58,816 bases of DNA from Phycisphaerae bacterium (GTDB taxonomy: Bacteria; Planctomycetota; Phycisphaerae; UBA1845; Fen-1342), in NCBI GenBank assembly GCA_022072445.1, contig JAJVHV010000030.1, positions 148,822-207,637 of the forward strand, written 5' to 3'. Below, one piece after another: positions 10,396-55,508 of the stretch (positions are counted from its first letter, which is position 1; the number at the start of each line of letters is the position of its first letter). The position numbers were made by a program, and so were the translations under genes. The notes beneath the pieces are model-generated. The model saw only the letters and a list, made by a program, of their open reading frames with translations. It was not told where the DNA came from and ran no database searches.

Positions 10396-10756
10396 GAGTG
10401 GTGTGGCACAGGCTATTAGCTGGTGTGGCACAGGCTAATAGCCTGTGCCACACTGGTGTGGGACAGGCTATTAGCGGTGTGGGACAGGCTCTTAGCCTGT
10501 GCCACACTCACACTGGTGTGGGACAGGCTCCTAGCCTGTGCCACACTCACACTGGTGTGGGACAGGCTCTTAGCCTGTGCCACACACGCTCACACTGGTG
10601 TGGGACAGGCTCTTAGCCTGTGCCACGCTCACACTGGTGTGGGACAGGCTCCTAGCCTGTGCCACACACGCTCACACTGGTGTGGGACAGGCTCTTAGCC
10701 TGTGCCACGCTCACACTGGTGTGGGACAGGCTCCTAGCCTGTGCCACACTCACACT
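10396..10756. repeat. Tandem array of GTGTGGGACAGGCT palindromes
   Basis: About ten copies of a roughly 40-bp unit fill most of the 446-bp gene-free gap between the MoaB/Mog gene and the diacylglycerol kinase gene. Each complete unit is an inverted repeat: GTGTGGGACAGGCT, a 2-4 base centre (CTT, CCT, ATT) and AGCCTGTGCCACAC. The first units read GTGTGGCACAGG and are perfect palindromes; later ones have a single G/C mismatch. Units are joined by CTCACACTG or ACGCTCACACTG. The first and fourth units are half-length. The near identity suggests recent expansion. Continuous open frames through the array are artefacts. Confidence 0.93.
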
Positions 10757-50441: not shown

Positions 50442-51461
50442 CTATTGGCGCGGTTTGGAGACGTGCTGATCGATCAGAATCGGATTGCCGTCGGGGTCGA
50501 TCAGCAGCAGACTGGCCGGGCCGCTGGTCGACTCGTCGGCCTCGGTCGCCAGCGATAAGCCGCGCTGCTTCAGGGCGCGCTGGATGTCGCGCACGTCGTC
50601 GAAATCGGACAGCGCCGCGCCGCTGCGATCCCAGCCGGGGTTGTAGGTCAGGCCGTTGCGCTCGAGCATGCCCTGGAACAGGCCGATCGTGCTGGTCTCG
50701 TTCTGAACGATCAGGTAGTGCGTGCCGTCGCCGGCGACCTTCCGAAAGCCAAGCTTCTCATAGAACGCGCGCGACGCGGCCACGTCCTTGACCGCCAGGC
50801 TGACCGAGAAGTTGCCGAGCCGCACGTGTTCACCGGCGTCGGCCTGCCGCCGATATTCGTAAACGGCGGTCTTTCGCCACGATTTACCGCCATCGGTGGA
50901 CGCCTCCCAGATGAGCGAAAACTCGTCGCGATTGCCGCCCGGGCGCTGCGTGAAACGCAGGAAGGACTCGGGAGCACCGGGCATGATCGAGCTGGTGCCG
51001 GGCTTGACGTTGCTGACGGTCAGGTCGTCGCCCTGCCGCGTTCCCTCGAAGACGTCGGTCAGCGACATGATGCTGTCGAGCCAGACGAACCGGTACACCT
51101 TGCGGAAGCGGTCGTAGGAGCGGAACCCGCTCATCGAAAGCTTGAACGCCGGGATGGTGATCTCTTCGCGCAGAAAACTCCCGCCGAGCATCGGCGCGAT
51201 CGTCGCCTCAGTCTGGCCCGGATACTCCTTGCCGTCGGGGCCGATGTAGCGGGTGGTGACCTTCCACTTGCCGGCGAGCCAGGCGAGGTCCTCCATTTCC
51301 TGGGGTGGGGCTGCGAATGGCGGCCACGCGGGCCTGCTGGTGGGCCCGGCTTGGGTGGGCTTTGGGGCGACGGGAGCGTCCTGCTTGGCGCCGCCCGTCG
51401 ACTGGGCCGCGGCGGCGATCATGGTGAACATGAGTATCGGCACTGCAATCCGGTAAGCCAC
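50442..51461 (-). CDS. Exported DUF1579 domain fused to a VOC/glyoxalase-like domain
   Basis: A 339-residue protein. A signal peptide (about 1-20: 'VAYRIAVPILMFTMIAAAA') is followed by a DUF1579-type beta domain (about 54-215: 'DLAWLAGKWKVTTRYIGPDG', 'ATIAPMLGGSFLREEITI', 'RKVYRFVWLDSIMSLTD') and then a VOC-fold domain (about 218-335: 'RLGNFSVSLAVKDVAASRAF', 'GTHYLIVQNETSTIGLFQGM', 'LLLIDPDGNPILIDQH'). The VOC half has the single-module pattern seen in bleomycin-resistance and glyoxalase relatives. The fusion and its export suggest binding or processing of a small ligand outside the cytoplasm; function unknown. GTG 51461 has AGGAG seven bases upstream. Confidence 0.8.
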   Translation of the reverse strand: MAYRIAVPILMFTMIAAAAQSTGGAKQDAPVAPKPTQAGPTSRPAWPPFAAPPQEMEDLAWLAGKWKVTTRYIGPDGKEYPGQTEATIAPMLGGSFLREEITIPAFKLSMSGFRSYDRFRKVYRFVWLDSIMSLTDVFEGTRQGDDLTVSNVKPGTSSIMPGAPESFLRFTQRPGGNRDEFSLIWEASTDGGKSWRKTAVYEYRRQADAGEHVRLGNFSVSLAVKDVAASRAFYEKLGFRKVAGDGTHYLIVQNETSTIGLFQGMLERNGLTYNPGWDRSGAALSDFDDVRDIQRALKQRGLSLATEADESTSGPASLLLIDPDGNPILIDQHVSKPRQ

Positions 51462-51562
51462 TGTCGAACTCCTCGCAGCCTCGCGCCCGCCGAGTCGGCG
51501 AAGCACTGTACCGCCGCGGCGCGGGCGGAACCAGTCGTTTTCGCCGCTCCGCCGGCGCGCAC

Positions 51563-51609
51563 TTGACGGAGACGGCCTCGGCCTCTATACTTGCATTATG
51601 ACGCAAGTA
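51563..51609 (+). promoter_or_regulatory. arsR promoter with overlapping operator
   Basis: TTGACG (51563-51568), a 17-bp spacer and TATACT (51586-51591), near the consensus. The -10 ends six bases before the arsR ATG, so the mRNA should be leaderless. A palindrome, ACTTGC-N8-GCAAGT (51589-51608), covers the end of the -10 box and the start codon and is well placed to be the ArsR operator. Confidence 0.82.
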
Positions 51610-51984
51610 CGCAAACGAAAACCGCCACCGACGCCCCGGCAGGCCGCGGCGCGTGATGGACCGATCGACGCGCTGCTCAAGCCCGAATTCTTCAAGGCCT
51701 TCTCCCATCCGACACGCGTGTCGCTGATTGCGTGCGTCGCCAAGTGCGGGCGAGGCTGTTCGGTCGGAGAAATCGCCGAGTGCTGCTCCGTGGATTTCTC
51801 CGTCGTGTCCCGGCACCTGGCGTTGCTCGCCCGTTCGGGCGTGCTGGAAGCGAAGAAACACGGGCGGACCGTCTTCTACACCGTCCGCTACGCCGAACTC
51901 TGCCGATCGCTCCGCGTGCTCGCGGATGCGTTGGAGCAGTGCTGCCCAGAGAAGGGAGGGACGTGCGGTGGCAAGTCGTGCTGA
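51598..51984 (+). CDS. arsR: ArsR-family arsenic-responsive repressor
   Basis: A 128-residue winged-helix repressor of the ArsR/SmtB family. The recognition helix region is 'CSVGEIAECCSVDFSVVSRH' and the wing 'KKHGRTVFYTV'. Candidate As(III) ligands are a C-terminal Cys115-Cys116 with Cys123 (QCCPEKGGTC), similar to the CC-x5-C arrangement of Acidithiobacillus ArsR, and an additional Cys set in the DNA-binding helices (Cys50, Cys54, Cys62, Cys63), the site used by E. coli-type ArsR. Having both sets is unusual. It begins the ars operon, with a palindromic operator at its own start, so autoregulation is expected. It overlaps the next gene by 17 bp. Confidence 0.9.
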   Translation: MTQVRKRKPPPTPRQAAARDGPIDALLKPEFFKAFSHPTRVSLIACVAKCGRGCSVGEIAECCSVDFSVVSRHLALLARSGVLEAKKHGRTVFYTVRYAELCRSLRVLADALEQCCPEKGGTCGGKSC

Positions 51985-53311
51985 GCGGCTCCGCGTGCTC
52001 TTCCTGTGCACCGGCAACGCGTGCCGAAGCCAGATGGCGGAGGGTTGGGCGCGGGCGCTGCGCTCCGACTCGATCGAACCGTACTCGGCCGGGACTGACC
52101 CGCACGGGCTGAACCGCCTCGCCGTGCGGGCGATGGCCGAAGCGGGCATCGACATCTCCCGTCACGCATCCAAGAGCGTCCATGCGCTGACGGGCGTTCC
52201 GTTCGACTTCGTCGTGACGGTGTGCGATTCGGCCAGCGAAGCGTGCCCAACCTTCCCTGCTCCCGCGAAGGTGCTGCACGTCGGTTTCGATGACCCGCCC
52301 AGGTTCGCGAAGGGCGCGACGACCGACGACGAAGCGCTGCCGCACTATCGCCGGGTGCGCGACGAGATCCGGCGATTCGTGGAGACGCTGCCCCAAGCCT
52401 TTTTCGGAGATTCGACCATGACCAGCCCTGCCTGCCGTAACGACTCGTGCTGCCCGCCCGCCGCCTCCGACGCAAACGCCGTGCGCGAACAGGTCCGTGA
52501 GGGTTACGCGAAGATCGCCCAAGGCGGAAGTTGTGGCCCGAGCGGATCGGGTGCCGGATGCTGCGGTGCTCCGGCGTTCTCGCCGGATCAACTCGCCCAG
52601 GCCATCGGTTACACGAGCGGTGACCTGGACGCGCTTCCGGATGGTGCGAACATGGGCCTCTCGTGCGGCAACCCGACCGCCCTTGCGTCGCTGCGCCCCG
52701 GCGAAGTGGTGCTCGACCTGGGCGCGGGCGGCGGTTTCGATTGCTTCGTGGCCGGGCCGAATGTGGGGAGGACGGGCCGCGTGATCGGCGTGGACATGAC
52801 GCCCGACATGCTCAGCAAGGCGCGCCGCAACGTGGCGTCGTACCGCGATCGGACCGGCCTGGAGAACGTGGAATTCCGATTGGGCGAGATCGAGGCGCTT
52901 CCCGTCGCCGACGCGAGCGTCGACGTCGTGATATCGAACTGCGTGCTGAACCTCTCGCCCGACAAGCCGCGCGTGTGGCGCGAGATCGCCCGCGTGCTGA
53001 AGCCCGGCGGGCGCGTCGCCGTTTCCGATTTGGCGCTCCTGCGCCCGCTGCCCGAGTCGGTCAAAGCCGATGTCCAGGCCCTGGTCGGGTGTGTCGCCGG
53101 GGCGGTGCTCGTGGAGCAGACGCGCGGCATGGCCAGCGCGGCCGGCTTGACCGAGGTCGCGCTGACGCTTAAGCCGCGCTACATCGACGCGATGATGGAT
53201 TGGCAGGACCCGCTCTATCGGAGAATCGTGGAGCGTCTGCCGGCTGGATCGAAGCCCAGCGACTACATCACCAGTCTTGACGTGTCGGCACGAAAACCGT
53301 CGTCGCGGTAG
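51968..53311 (+). CDS. Arsenate reductase-arsenite methyltransferase fusion (ArsC-ArsM)
   Basis: A single 447-residue frame. Residues 1-147 are a thioredoxin-linked, LMW-phosphatase-like arsenate reductase: P-loop CTGNACRS (Cys14-Ser21), the redox pair Cys86 and Cys93 in VCDSASEAC, and the general acid in DDPP (about 109). Residues 151-447 are a complete As(III) S-adenosylmethionine methyltransferase: SAM motif VLDLGAGGGFDCF and the three conserved Cys at 233 (GLSCGNP), 325 (ISNCVLNLS) and 375 (VGCVAGA). The chain would reduce As(V) and methylate As(III). ATG at 52418 (residue 151) has GGAG nine bases upstream, so ArsM alone could also be made. GTG 51968 has GGGAGGGA upstream and overlaps arsR. 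Confidence 0.88.
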   Translation: MASRAERLRVLFLCTGNACRSQMAEGWARALRSDSIEPYSAGTDPHGLNRLAVRAMAEAGIDISRHASKSVHALTGVPFDFVVTVCDSASEACPTFPAPAKVLHVGFDDPPRFAKGATTDDEALPHYRRVRDEIRRFVETLPQAFFGDSTMTSPACRNDSCCPPAASDANAVREQVREGYAKIAQGGSCGPSGSGAGCCGAPAFSPDQLAQAIGYTSGDLDALPDGANMGLSCGNPTALASLRPGEVVLDLGAGGGFDCFVAGPNVGRTGRVIGVDMTPDMLSKARRNVASYRDRTGLENVEFRLGEIEALPVADASVDVVISNCVLNLSPDKPRVWREIARVLKPGGRVAVSDLALLRPLPESVKADVQALVGCVAGAVLVEQTRGMASAAGLTEVALTLKPRYIDAMMDWQDPLYRRIVERLPAGSKPSDYITSLDVSARKPSSR

Positions 53312-53332
53312 AAATCAGCGGTGACAACAAGC

Positions 53333-54487
53333 ATGTCAGGACAGAATGACACACGCCGGCTGAACGTCTTCGAGCGTTATCTGACGCTCTGGGTCGCCCT
53401 GTGCATGGTCGTTGGCATCGCCCTCGGCAAGCTGCTGCCCGGCCTGACCGATGCACTGCGCCGCGTCGAATTCGGCGGCGGCAGCCAGATCAACGTGCCG
53501 ATCGCCATCCTCATCTGGCTCATGATCTACCCCATGATGCTCAAGGTGGACTTCGCGTCGGTGCCCGGCGTTGGCAAGCGGCCCAAGGGCCTGCTCATCA
53601 CGTGCTTCGTGAACTGGCTGGTCAAACCGTTCAGCATGGCTCTCCTGGGCTACGTCTTCTTCAAGCACCTCTTCGGCCCGTGGATCGGGGCGGAACTGGC
53701 CGACCAGTACATCGCCGGCGTCATCATCCTCGCCGCCGCGCCGTGCACGGCGATGGTCTTCGTGTGGAGTTATCTGACGCGCGGCGACGCGGCCTATACG
53801 CTCGTGCAGGTTTCGGTGAACGACCTGCTGATGCTGGTGCTGTTTGCGCCGATCGTGGCGCTCCTCGTCAGCGGCGCTTCGGCATTGTCGGTGCCGTTCA
53901 GTGTGCTGGTCTACGCCGTCATCGGCTTCATCGTGATCCCACTGGCCGCGGGGGCGATCACGCGCCGCGCGTTGATTCAGCGCCGCGGCGTGCAGTGGTT
54001 CGAACAGTCGTTCCTGCCGCGATTTCATCCGATTGCGGTGCTGGCGCTGCTGGCCACGCTGGTGCTGATCTTCGCGTTCCAGGCGGACAACATCACGAAG
54101 CGGTTCTTTCACGTCGTGCTGATCGCGATTCCGATCCTGCTTCAGGTGTACTTCAATTCTTCGCTGGTCTACGGCCTGATGATGCTCTTCCGCGTGCCGC
54201 ACAGCGTGGCGGCGCCGGGGGCGCTGATTGGCGCCAGCAACTTCTTCGAGCTGGCCGTTGCGACCGCGATCGCGCTCTACGGCCCGGAGTCCGGCGCCGC
54301 GCTGGCGACGGTCGTCGGCGTGCTGGTCGAGGTGCCGGTGATGCTCAGCGTCTGCGCGCTGTGCAACCGCACGCGCGGCTGGTTCGACGCGTCGTCGTCC
54401 GCGGAGTGTCCGGCCCCCGCGCCCGGCTGCTGTGCCAACTGGAGTTCCTTCGCGCCGCCGGCCGACCCGGCAGCCAGTCGAGCGTAG
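53333..54487 (+). CDS. acr3: ACR3-type arsenite efflux permease
   Basis: A 384-residue membrane transporter of the ACR3 (BART superfamily) type with about ten helices. Key residues are visible: the conserved Cys in 'AAPCTAMVFVWSYLTRGD' (helix 4) and Glu in 'ASNFFELAVATAIALYG' (helix 9), both required for As(III) transport in characterised members. 'VPIAILIWLMIYPMMLKVDF' is the family signature. The C-terminal tail (after ~360) has two Cys pairs (ECPAPAPGCC) not typical of ACR3, perhaps metalloid-binding. The start is ATG 53333 or GTG 53321; no strong ribosome site. It follows the arsC-arsM fusion by 21 bases and closes the ars operon. Confidence 0.92.
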   Translation: MSGQNDTRRLNVFERYLTLWVALCMVVGIALGKLLPGLTDALRRVEFGGGSQINVPIAILIWLMIYPMMLKVDFASVPGVGKRPKGLLITCFVNWLVKPFSMALLGYVFFKHLFGPWIGAELADQYIAGVIILAAAPCTAMVFVWSYLTRGDAAYTLVQVSVNDLLMLVLFAPIVALLVSGASALSVPFSVLVYAVIGFIVIPLAAGAITRRALIQRRGVQWFEQSFLPRFHPIAVLALLATLVLIFAFQADNITKRFFHVVLIAIPILLQVYFNSSLVYGLMMLFRVPHSVAAPGALIGASNFFELAVATAIALYGPESGAALATVVGVLVEVPVMLSVCALCNRTRGWFDASSSAECPAPAPGCCANWSSFAPPADPAASRA

Positions 54488-54607: not shown

Positions 54608-54955
54608 ATGGGTACAGCCGTGGCCGAGGACAGGATTTTTCAGGCGCTCGCGGACCCCAGCCGCAGGCGGATCTTCGAGTCGCTCACGCGCGGCGAAGCG
54701 GCGGTGAAGGACCTCACGGCCCGTTTCGACATCTCGCAGCCGGCGATCTCGCAGCACCTCGGCCACTTGAAGAGCGCCGGCCTGGTGAATCGCCGGCGCG
54801 ACGGGCGCAATGTCTACTACCGGGTCGAACCGCGTGGGATGAAGCCGTTGATCGACTGGATCGCGCACTACCGCGCGTTCTGGACGGAGCGCCTCGATCG
54901 CCTTGAACGCTTGCTGAAGACGATAGGCGAACAGCGGCTGCGAGGAGGCACATAG
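54608..54955 (+). CDS. ArsR-family regulator without metal-binding cysteines
   Basis: A 115-residue winged-helix regulator: 'IFQALADPSRRRIFESLTRG', 'LTARFDISQPAISQHLGHLK' (recognition helix) and the wing 'NRRRDGRNVYYRV', with a C-terminal dimerisation helix. It has no Cys at all, so it does not sense thiophilic metals. This type is usually paired with an SRPBCC/AHSA1 protein, exactly as here. It is predicted to repress its own cassette through the inverted repeat in its promoter. The stop codon TAG lies within the first unit of an 8-bp tandem repeat. Confidence 0.9.
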   Translation: MGTAVAEDRIFQALADPSRRRIFESLTRGEAAVKDLTARFDISQPAISQHLGHLKSAGLVNRRRDGRNVYYRVEPRGMKPLIDWIAHYRAFWTERLDRLERLLKTIGEQRLRGGT

Positions 54956-55037
54956 CCACATAGCCACATAGCCACATAGCCACGTAGCCACGTAGCCACG
55001 TAGCCACGTAGCCACGTAGCCACGAAGCGACGAAGCG
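54950..55037. repeat. 8-bp tandem repeat array (ACATAGCC/ACGTAGCC)
   Basis: Eleven units in exact 8-bp register: four ACATAGCC, five ACGTAGCC and two ACGAAGCG. The array provides the arsR-like stop codon and fills the gap to the SRPBCC gene. The stepwise change of variants along the array suggests slippage expansion. Confidence 0.92.
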
Positions 55038-55067
55038 ATGAAGGAACGAGCTGGAGAGGATAGCCGC

Positions 55068-55508
55068 ATGAACCCAATCGACACGACCGCACGTTCGCAG
55101 ACCGAGTCCATTTCCTTCGAGTTCGATCTGCCACATGCCCCAGACACGGTGTGGCGCGCCCTCACCGACCCCGTGCTGCTCGCCGAGTGGCTCCTGCCCG
55201 TCGTCGATCTGAAGCTCGACGCGGGAGCGGCGTTCACGTTCAAGGCACCGCCGCAACCTGGGTGGAACGGCACGGTGAACTGCCGGCTCCGCGAGATCGA
55301 AGCGCCGCGAAAGCTCAGCTACGCGTGGGTCGTCGGCGACATCGACACCGTCGTGACCTTCACGCTCACGCCCACGGCGTCGGGCACGCGGCTCTCGCTC
55401 GTGCAGGCGGGCTTCAAGCAGGACCAGAAGGCGGCTTTCGGCGGCGCGCGTTATGGCTGGAACATGATGGGCGGCAGGCTTGTCGAACTGCTGGCGAGGA
55501 CCGGATGA
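55068..55508 (+). CDS. SRPBCC (AHSA1-like) family protein
   Basis: A 146-residue START/AHSA1-like protein with the standard pattern 'ISFEFDLPHAPDTVWRALTD', 'LLAEWLLPVV', 'LREIEAPRKLSYAWV' and 'TRLSLVQAGF'. These proteins form a hydrophobic cavity and are usually encoded next to an ArsR-type regulator; the ligand is unknown. ATG 55068 is preferred because GGAGAGG lies eight bases upstream; an ATG at 55038 begins within the tandem repeat. It is the second gene of the cassette that starts at 54608. The stop is followed 32 bases later by a heptamer array. Confidence 0.88.
   Translation: MNPIDTTARSQTESISFEFDLPHAPDTVWRALTDPVLLAEWLLPVVDLKLDAGAAFTFKAPPQPGWNGTVNCRLREIEAPRKLSYAWVVGDIDTVVTFTLTPTASGTRLSLVQAGFKQDQKAAFGGARYGWNMMGGRLVELLARTG

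Follow-up and report, generated by a model that had tools for sequence, protein, structure and literature searches.

Known fusions of ArsC or of ArsM

The arsenate reductase ArsC has been described as a part of several fusion proteins, namely ArsR-ArsC, ACR3-ArsC, AqpS-ArsC and ArsN-ArsC (as given in the accessible part of PMC6205960). The arsenite methyltransferase ArsM is likewise known from fusions: ArsR-ArsM in Brevundimonas M20 (PMC10190100) and arsM-SelD in Naegleria (PMC5552862; both papers accessible in part). The accessible parts of four further papers (PMC8515886, PMC12607644, PMC6176005 and PMC9812998) contain no ArsC-ArsM fusion protein, and the name "arsCM" that appears in PMC8515886 is an item in a gene list in the part of the text consulted. 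We did not find the ArsC-ArsM pairing in the open-access literature; it may exist elsewhere, and RefSeq or UniProt may well contain such proteins.

A predicted ArsC-ArsM fusion protein from Phycisphaerae

The window analyzed in this work is a stretch of 58,816 nucleotides from a Phycisphaerae bacterium (phylum Planctomycetota), whose genome assembly amounts to 5.25 Mb in 50 contigs and is 96.7% complete. It was originally predicted to encode ArsC and ArsM as one polypeptide with all expected cysteines in both halves, and our analysis agrees on both points. The gene (51968..53311, + strand; locus L001) starts with GTG, preceded by AGGGAGG, and ends with TAG; its translation comprises 447 aa with the terminal stop as the only one, and contains a complete LMW-phosphatase-type ArsC and, behind it, a complete ArsM. 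In the related locus L118, an ATG is found at the position aligned with the GTG at 51968.

The ArsC domain encompasses aa 7-142 (51986..52393, +). The profile search matched aa 10-106 to LMWPc (PF01451) and aa 10-140 to TIGR02691 (thioredoxin-type arsenate reductase), which is the top ArsC model among those listed for the first half, with a score of 129.5 bits, i.e. below the cut-off of 174.3. The model of this domain resembles the structures of two stand-alone reductases, the thioredoxin-linked ArsC of S. aureus pI258 (2cd7: Z 22.1, 1.4 Å over 129 residues) and ArsC of the B. subtilis type (1jl3: Z 21.6, 1.8 Å over 135 residues). Cys14, Cys86 and Cys93 align with cysteines of B. subtilis ArsC (1jl3), which we take to be its three catalytic residues, and the CX5R loop (C14 to R20) together with C86 and C93 is invariant in all 10 fused loci. 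The first half is ArsC-like by fold and by cysteines, and falls outside TIGR02691 by the curated cut-off.

The ArsM domain encompasses aa 166-445 (52463..53302, +), with Cys198/199, Cys233, Cys325 and Cys375, and was matched by NF008823 (arsenite methyltransferase) at aa 168-445 with 310.8 bits, above the cut-off of 263. Its fold resembles that of the ArsM structures 4fr0, 5evj and 6cx6 (Z 25.7-25.9; for 6cx6: Z 25.9, 2.2 Å over 225 residues). Cys233, Cys325 and Cys375 align with Cys72, Cys174 and Cys224 of 4fr0, presumably the arsenic-binding residues, and are also invariant in the 10 fused loci.

The predicted model of the complete protein (104 rows in the alignment) exhibits a mean pLDDT of 89.7 and a pTM of 0.72, with pLDDT below 50 at aa 148-159, 161-163 and 189-195. 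It suggests two folded domains joined by a low-confidence linker, their mutual orientation not being firm. A Foldseek search with the whole model reported mostly methyltransferases, with ArsC (1jl3) at rank 38.

Genomic context

The fusion gene is flanked on the same strand by a gene for an ArsR/SmtB-type repressor (51598..51984, +; NF033788, 58.9 bits, cut-off 55), whose last 17 nt are shared with the beginning of the fusion gene, and by a gene for an ACR3 arsenite efflux transporter (53321..54487, +; TIGR00832, 366.9 bits, cut-off 282.8; start codon as listed mechanically), which begins 9 nt past the fusion stop. The order is arsR, arsC-arsM fusion, acr3. Among the 10 fused loci, ArsR was found in the neighborhood of nine and ACR3 in that of six, the flanks available being of unequal length. 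Searches of the 96.7%-complete genome revealed no other LMW-type ArsC match at E ≤0.001, no match to the other ArsC family (PF03960) and none to ArsI, ArsP or ArsH; a second clear ArsM was not found either, the next matches in the genome being to the methyltransferase core, with at most 42.8 bits.

Other features of the window include a gene divergent from arsR (50442-51506, -), in which DUF1579 is joined to a glyoxalase-type domain, and 11 copies of an 8-base repeat (54949-55036) that start within the final codons of an ArsR-like gene (54608-54955) and continue up to a gene with an AHSA1 domain (55038-55508); with a unit of 8 bases, gain or loss of a copy shifts the frame. There are also two longer tandem arrays, one at 10476-10756 (39-base unit resembling an inverted repeat, 7.0 copies, 90% matches) and one at the window edge, 1-285 (92-base unit, 3.1 copies, 97% matches).

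Occurrence in other genomes

The nearest named relatives of the fusion protein (best 80 of 577) come from metagenome-assembled genomes (MAGs) of Phycisphaerales and other Planctomycetota. We identified at least 10 distinct fused loci, eight of them from the phylum of the window, at least one from Hydrogenedentota (L041) and at least one from Paceibacterota (L052), the count outside the phylum being a lower bound drawn from the best 80 of 577 relatives; alongside them there are 66 distinct arsC-arsM pairs that are adjacent but separate. The view that the two genes are normally separate holds for most of the classed pairs, but the fusion recurs, with 10 distinct loci. At least three of the fused loci come from MAGs, which we count against our preferred explanation.

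In a sample of 397 genomes of the class, all 107 genomes with a match at E ≤1e-100 were classed: seven are fused, 41 adjacent and separate, 57 have an arsM with no arsC in the preceding 400 nt, and two are cut off; L029, whose genome lies outside the sample, was left out of this tally. Seventeen of the 48 adjacent pairs are in one frame, which is near the third expected by chance, and of these seventeen, seven have no stop between the genes (the fused ones) and ten keep it. A phylum-wide sample of 392 genomes, restricted to matches at E ≤1e-126, so that more distant fusions can be missed, yielded eight matches: four fused (the window, L121, L122 and L201), three adjacent (L123, L200 and L202) and one with ArsM only (L203).

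Mobile elements were considered as further carriers and rejected. Of 1253 matching plasmid records, 3 align with 80% or more of the query at a single site; in the rows with such coverage among the 30 of 1253 listed (H1, H3 and H4), arsC and arsM are named as separate features. Viral contigs gave three loci, all with ArsM and no arsC within 400 nt upstream.

Phylogenetic analysis

Trees were calculated from concatenated ArsC-ArsM pairs after removal of identical ones (L080, L119, L147, L151, L153 and L163; L119 is identical in sequence to L038), with internal stops in a few rows read as X. On the 73-row tree the distribution of the fused state takes six changes, of which at least five are forced by the starred branches, the bootstrap support being unsettled; on a 76-row quick tree it takes seven changes, with at least three forced. 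In the 73-row tree the window locus groups with L118 and L038 (99/94), which together form its fused clade, and L122 groups with L155 (99/83). Within the wider clade of the window, the fused L009 is sister to the separate pairs L046 and L049, hence gain and loss of the fusion are indistinguishable there and the polarity is ambiguous. Taken as a whole, the trees suggest that the ArsC-ArsM fusion arose several times from neighboring genes.

The fused gene of the window, assigned to family f1, has its closest counterparts in family f10 (82% and 78%), ahead of the fused L009 from its own family (73%), and the ArsR encoded next to it shares 79% identity with the ArsR of L118. Given the affinity to f10 and the identity of the ArsR proteins, the cassette 51598-53311 may possibly have been laterally transferred.

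The junction and the possible own start of ArsM

The junction encompasses aa 143-169 (52394..52474, +), i.e. the ArsC tail followed by the ArsM N-terminus, and includes the two stretches of pLDDT below 50 at aa 148-159 and 161-163. A GGAG (52406-52409), a spacer of 8 nt and an in-frame ATG (52418-52420) make up a possible own start of ArsM (52406..52420, +), where the original prediction had placed them. These elements are retained in both clade mates, L118 and L038, and the distance of 24 nt from the end of the arsC match to the ATG, in frame, is the same in all three loci, which differ from one another at a dS of 0.88-1.11 in ArsC and 0.79-1.15 in the core of ArsM (rough values, near saturation). 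In the separate sisters L046 and L049 the corresponding sequence is AAGGAG-7 nt-ATGA, where TGA closes arsC and ATG opens arsM, while the three fused loci have GGAG-8 nt-ATGA. The one additional base between the Shine-Dalgarno (SD) sequence and the ATG brings arsC into the arsM frame and places the TGA out of frame. A possible 4-nt overlap of start and stop is present in 20 of the 66 distinct separate pairs, in 14 of them as ATGA. If the junction arose from neighbors overlapping in this manner, the linker contains nothing newly acquired, only the natural tail of ArsC joined to the natural N-terminus of ArsM. The stretch whose open frame is required by the fusion alone is about 8 codons long in the window clade, so that an open frame in it is by itself weak evidence. 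The linker (aa 143-169) exhibits a pN/pS of 0.52-0.61, compared to values of 0.11-0.30 for ArsC and for the core of ArsM, and the span between the domain matches ranges from 18 to 174 nt across loci.

As the GGAG and the ATG are still present, free ArsM may be made as a second product in the window clade. GGA is an uncommon choice for glycine in the three clade members (5 of 40, 6 of 38 and 2 of 45 cases, with the SD codon counted), yet it occupies the SD position in all three, a conservation that may in part be explained by shared descent; SD-like 4-mers ahead of the ATG are common in general (54 of 71 separate loci). Among the other fused loci, L121 also retains AGGAG and ATG, and L009, L041 and L052 retain the ATG with a weak or absent SD. 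In L122, L155 and L201 there is no ATG at the ArsM start, and the ArsM cysteines are intact in all three. L122 has a GTG 6 nt past a GGAG, from which ArsM would miss its first helix, L155 has a GTG 11 nt past a GGAG, and in L201 the sole candidates are two TTGs that lack an SD, so that this locus shows no SD-led ArsM start. The pN/pS of the L122/L155 ArsM cores is 0.30. ArsM could still be initiated elsewhere in these loci, e.g. at the GTGs in L122 and L155. Among the indirect evidence for the fused form acting as a working methyltransferase, that from these three loci ranks first, with L201 carrying the most weight and L122 and L155 less; the loci also indirectly support the production of one polypeptide in the cell.

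Functional interpretation

Judging from the sequences, a bifunctional enzyme is likely. In the explanation that we prefer, and consider quite probable, an ArsC-ArsM protein is encoded in an arsR-arsCM-acr3 cluster, was fused in place and is probably accompanied by free ArsM. The ArsC half would reduce arsenate to arsenite by the three-cysteine, thioredoxin-linked route, the tethered ArsM half would methylate arsenite with SAM via its three conserved cysteines, and unmethylated arsenite would exit through ACR3. The fusion would have originated from neighbors with an ATGA overlap, when the spacer from the SD to the ATG grew by a single base and arsC came into the arsM frame, and the retained SD and ATG would probably yield some free ArsM besides the fusion. 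We infer here the direction of change, both activities and the dual products.

A single base separates the fused from the separate state at the window junction, and an error of sequencing or assembly, e.g. in the run of five T at 52400-52404, might in principle have joined two separate genes. We regard this as very improbable, since the same in-frame junction is found in two further species at a silent divergence near 1: L118 and L038 share the frame and the length and have no run of five T, and the remaining fused loci have quite different junctions. The end of arsC, which had been named as the place where an error could undo the prediction, bears no sign of one. A stronger competitor, although compatible with the preferred explanation, is neutral read-through, in which compact neighbors that happen to share a frame become joined, the halves work as if they were apart and free ArsM carries out most of the methylation. 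The lack of a stop in 7 of the 17 same-frame pairs of the class sample, the SD and ATG that persist in the clade of the window, and the linker, with its low model confidence and its pN/pS higher than in the domains, all fit this possibility. However, fused clades of three and of two species have lasted over large divergence, and L122, L155 and L201 keep the ArsM cysteines with no ATG for ArsM and, in L201, with no SD-led start of any kind. We judge neutral read-through to be somewhat less probable than not.

The original prediction also proposed that arsenite is handed over directly from ArsC to ArsM, which would keep free arsenite low. Such channeling from one active site to the other is in line with the repeated fusion of two consecutive enzymes and with the L201 form that lacks an own ArsM start. 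Against it stand the adjoining ACR3 gene and the inter-domain stretch, whose variable length (18 to 174 nt) and low model confidence speak against a fixed interface; the model, with pLDDT below 50 at aa 148-159 and 161-163, is silent on the interface, and the proposed hand-over is left unsupported. We consider channeling improbable. Slightly less doubtful, but still unlikely in our view, is a bolder extension of the preferred explanation, according to which a one-protein arsenate-to-methylarsenical enzyme evolved recurrently and was selected as the tethering limits free arsenite, with the loci devoid of an ArsM start as the fixed end point.

Under this bolder extension, and with ArsI, ArsP and ArsH unmatched in this genome, the cell would need to release its methylated product or carry the methylation further. 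The series from separate genes through ATGA-overlapping genes and fusions with their own ArsM start to fusions with no ArsM ATG illustrates the small steps through which a bifunctional enzyme can arise, and the same series offers natural constructs for testing if the tethering of enzymes around a toxic intermediate is of advantage.

Comparison with known systems

Compared to stand-alone thioredoxin-linked ArsC, the ArsC of the window runs on into ArsM and scores under the TIGR02691 cut-off, while the ArsM half, which has equivalents of Cys72, Cys174 and Cys224, differs from 4fr0, 5evj and 6cx6 in having ArsC ahead of it in the same polypeptide. With the ArsR-ArsM fusion of Brevundimonas M20 (PMC10190100) and the arsM-SelD fusion of Naegleria (PMC5552862) it shares the involvement of ArsM, but according to the accessible parts of these papers the partner is a repressor in the former and SelD in the latter, and not a reductase. 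The fusions listed in the accessible part of PMC6205960 are similar in that ArsC is joined to another arsenic-resistance protein; their partners are repressors, transporters or ArsN, whereas in the window the partner is a methyltransferase, i.e. the next enzyme, so that the predicted fusion pairs two consecutive enzymes.
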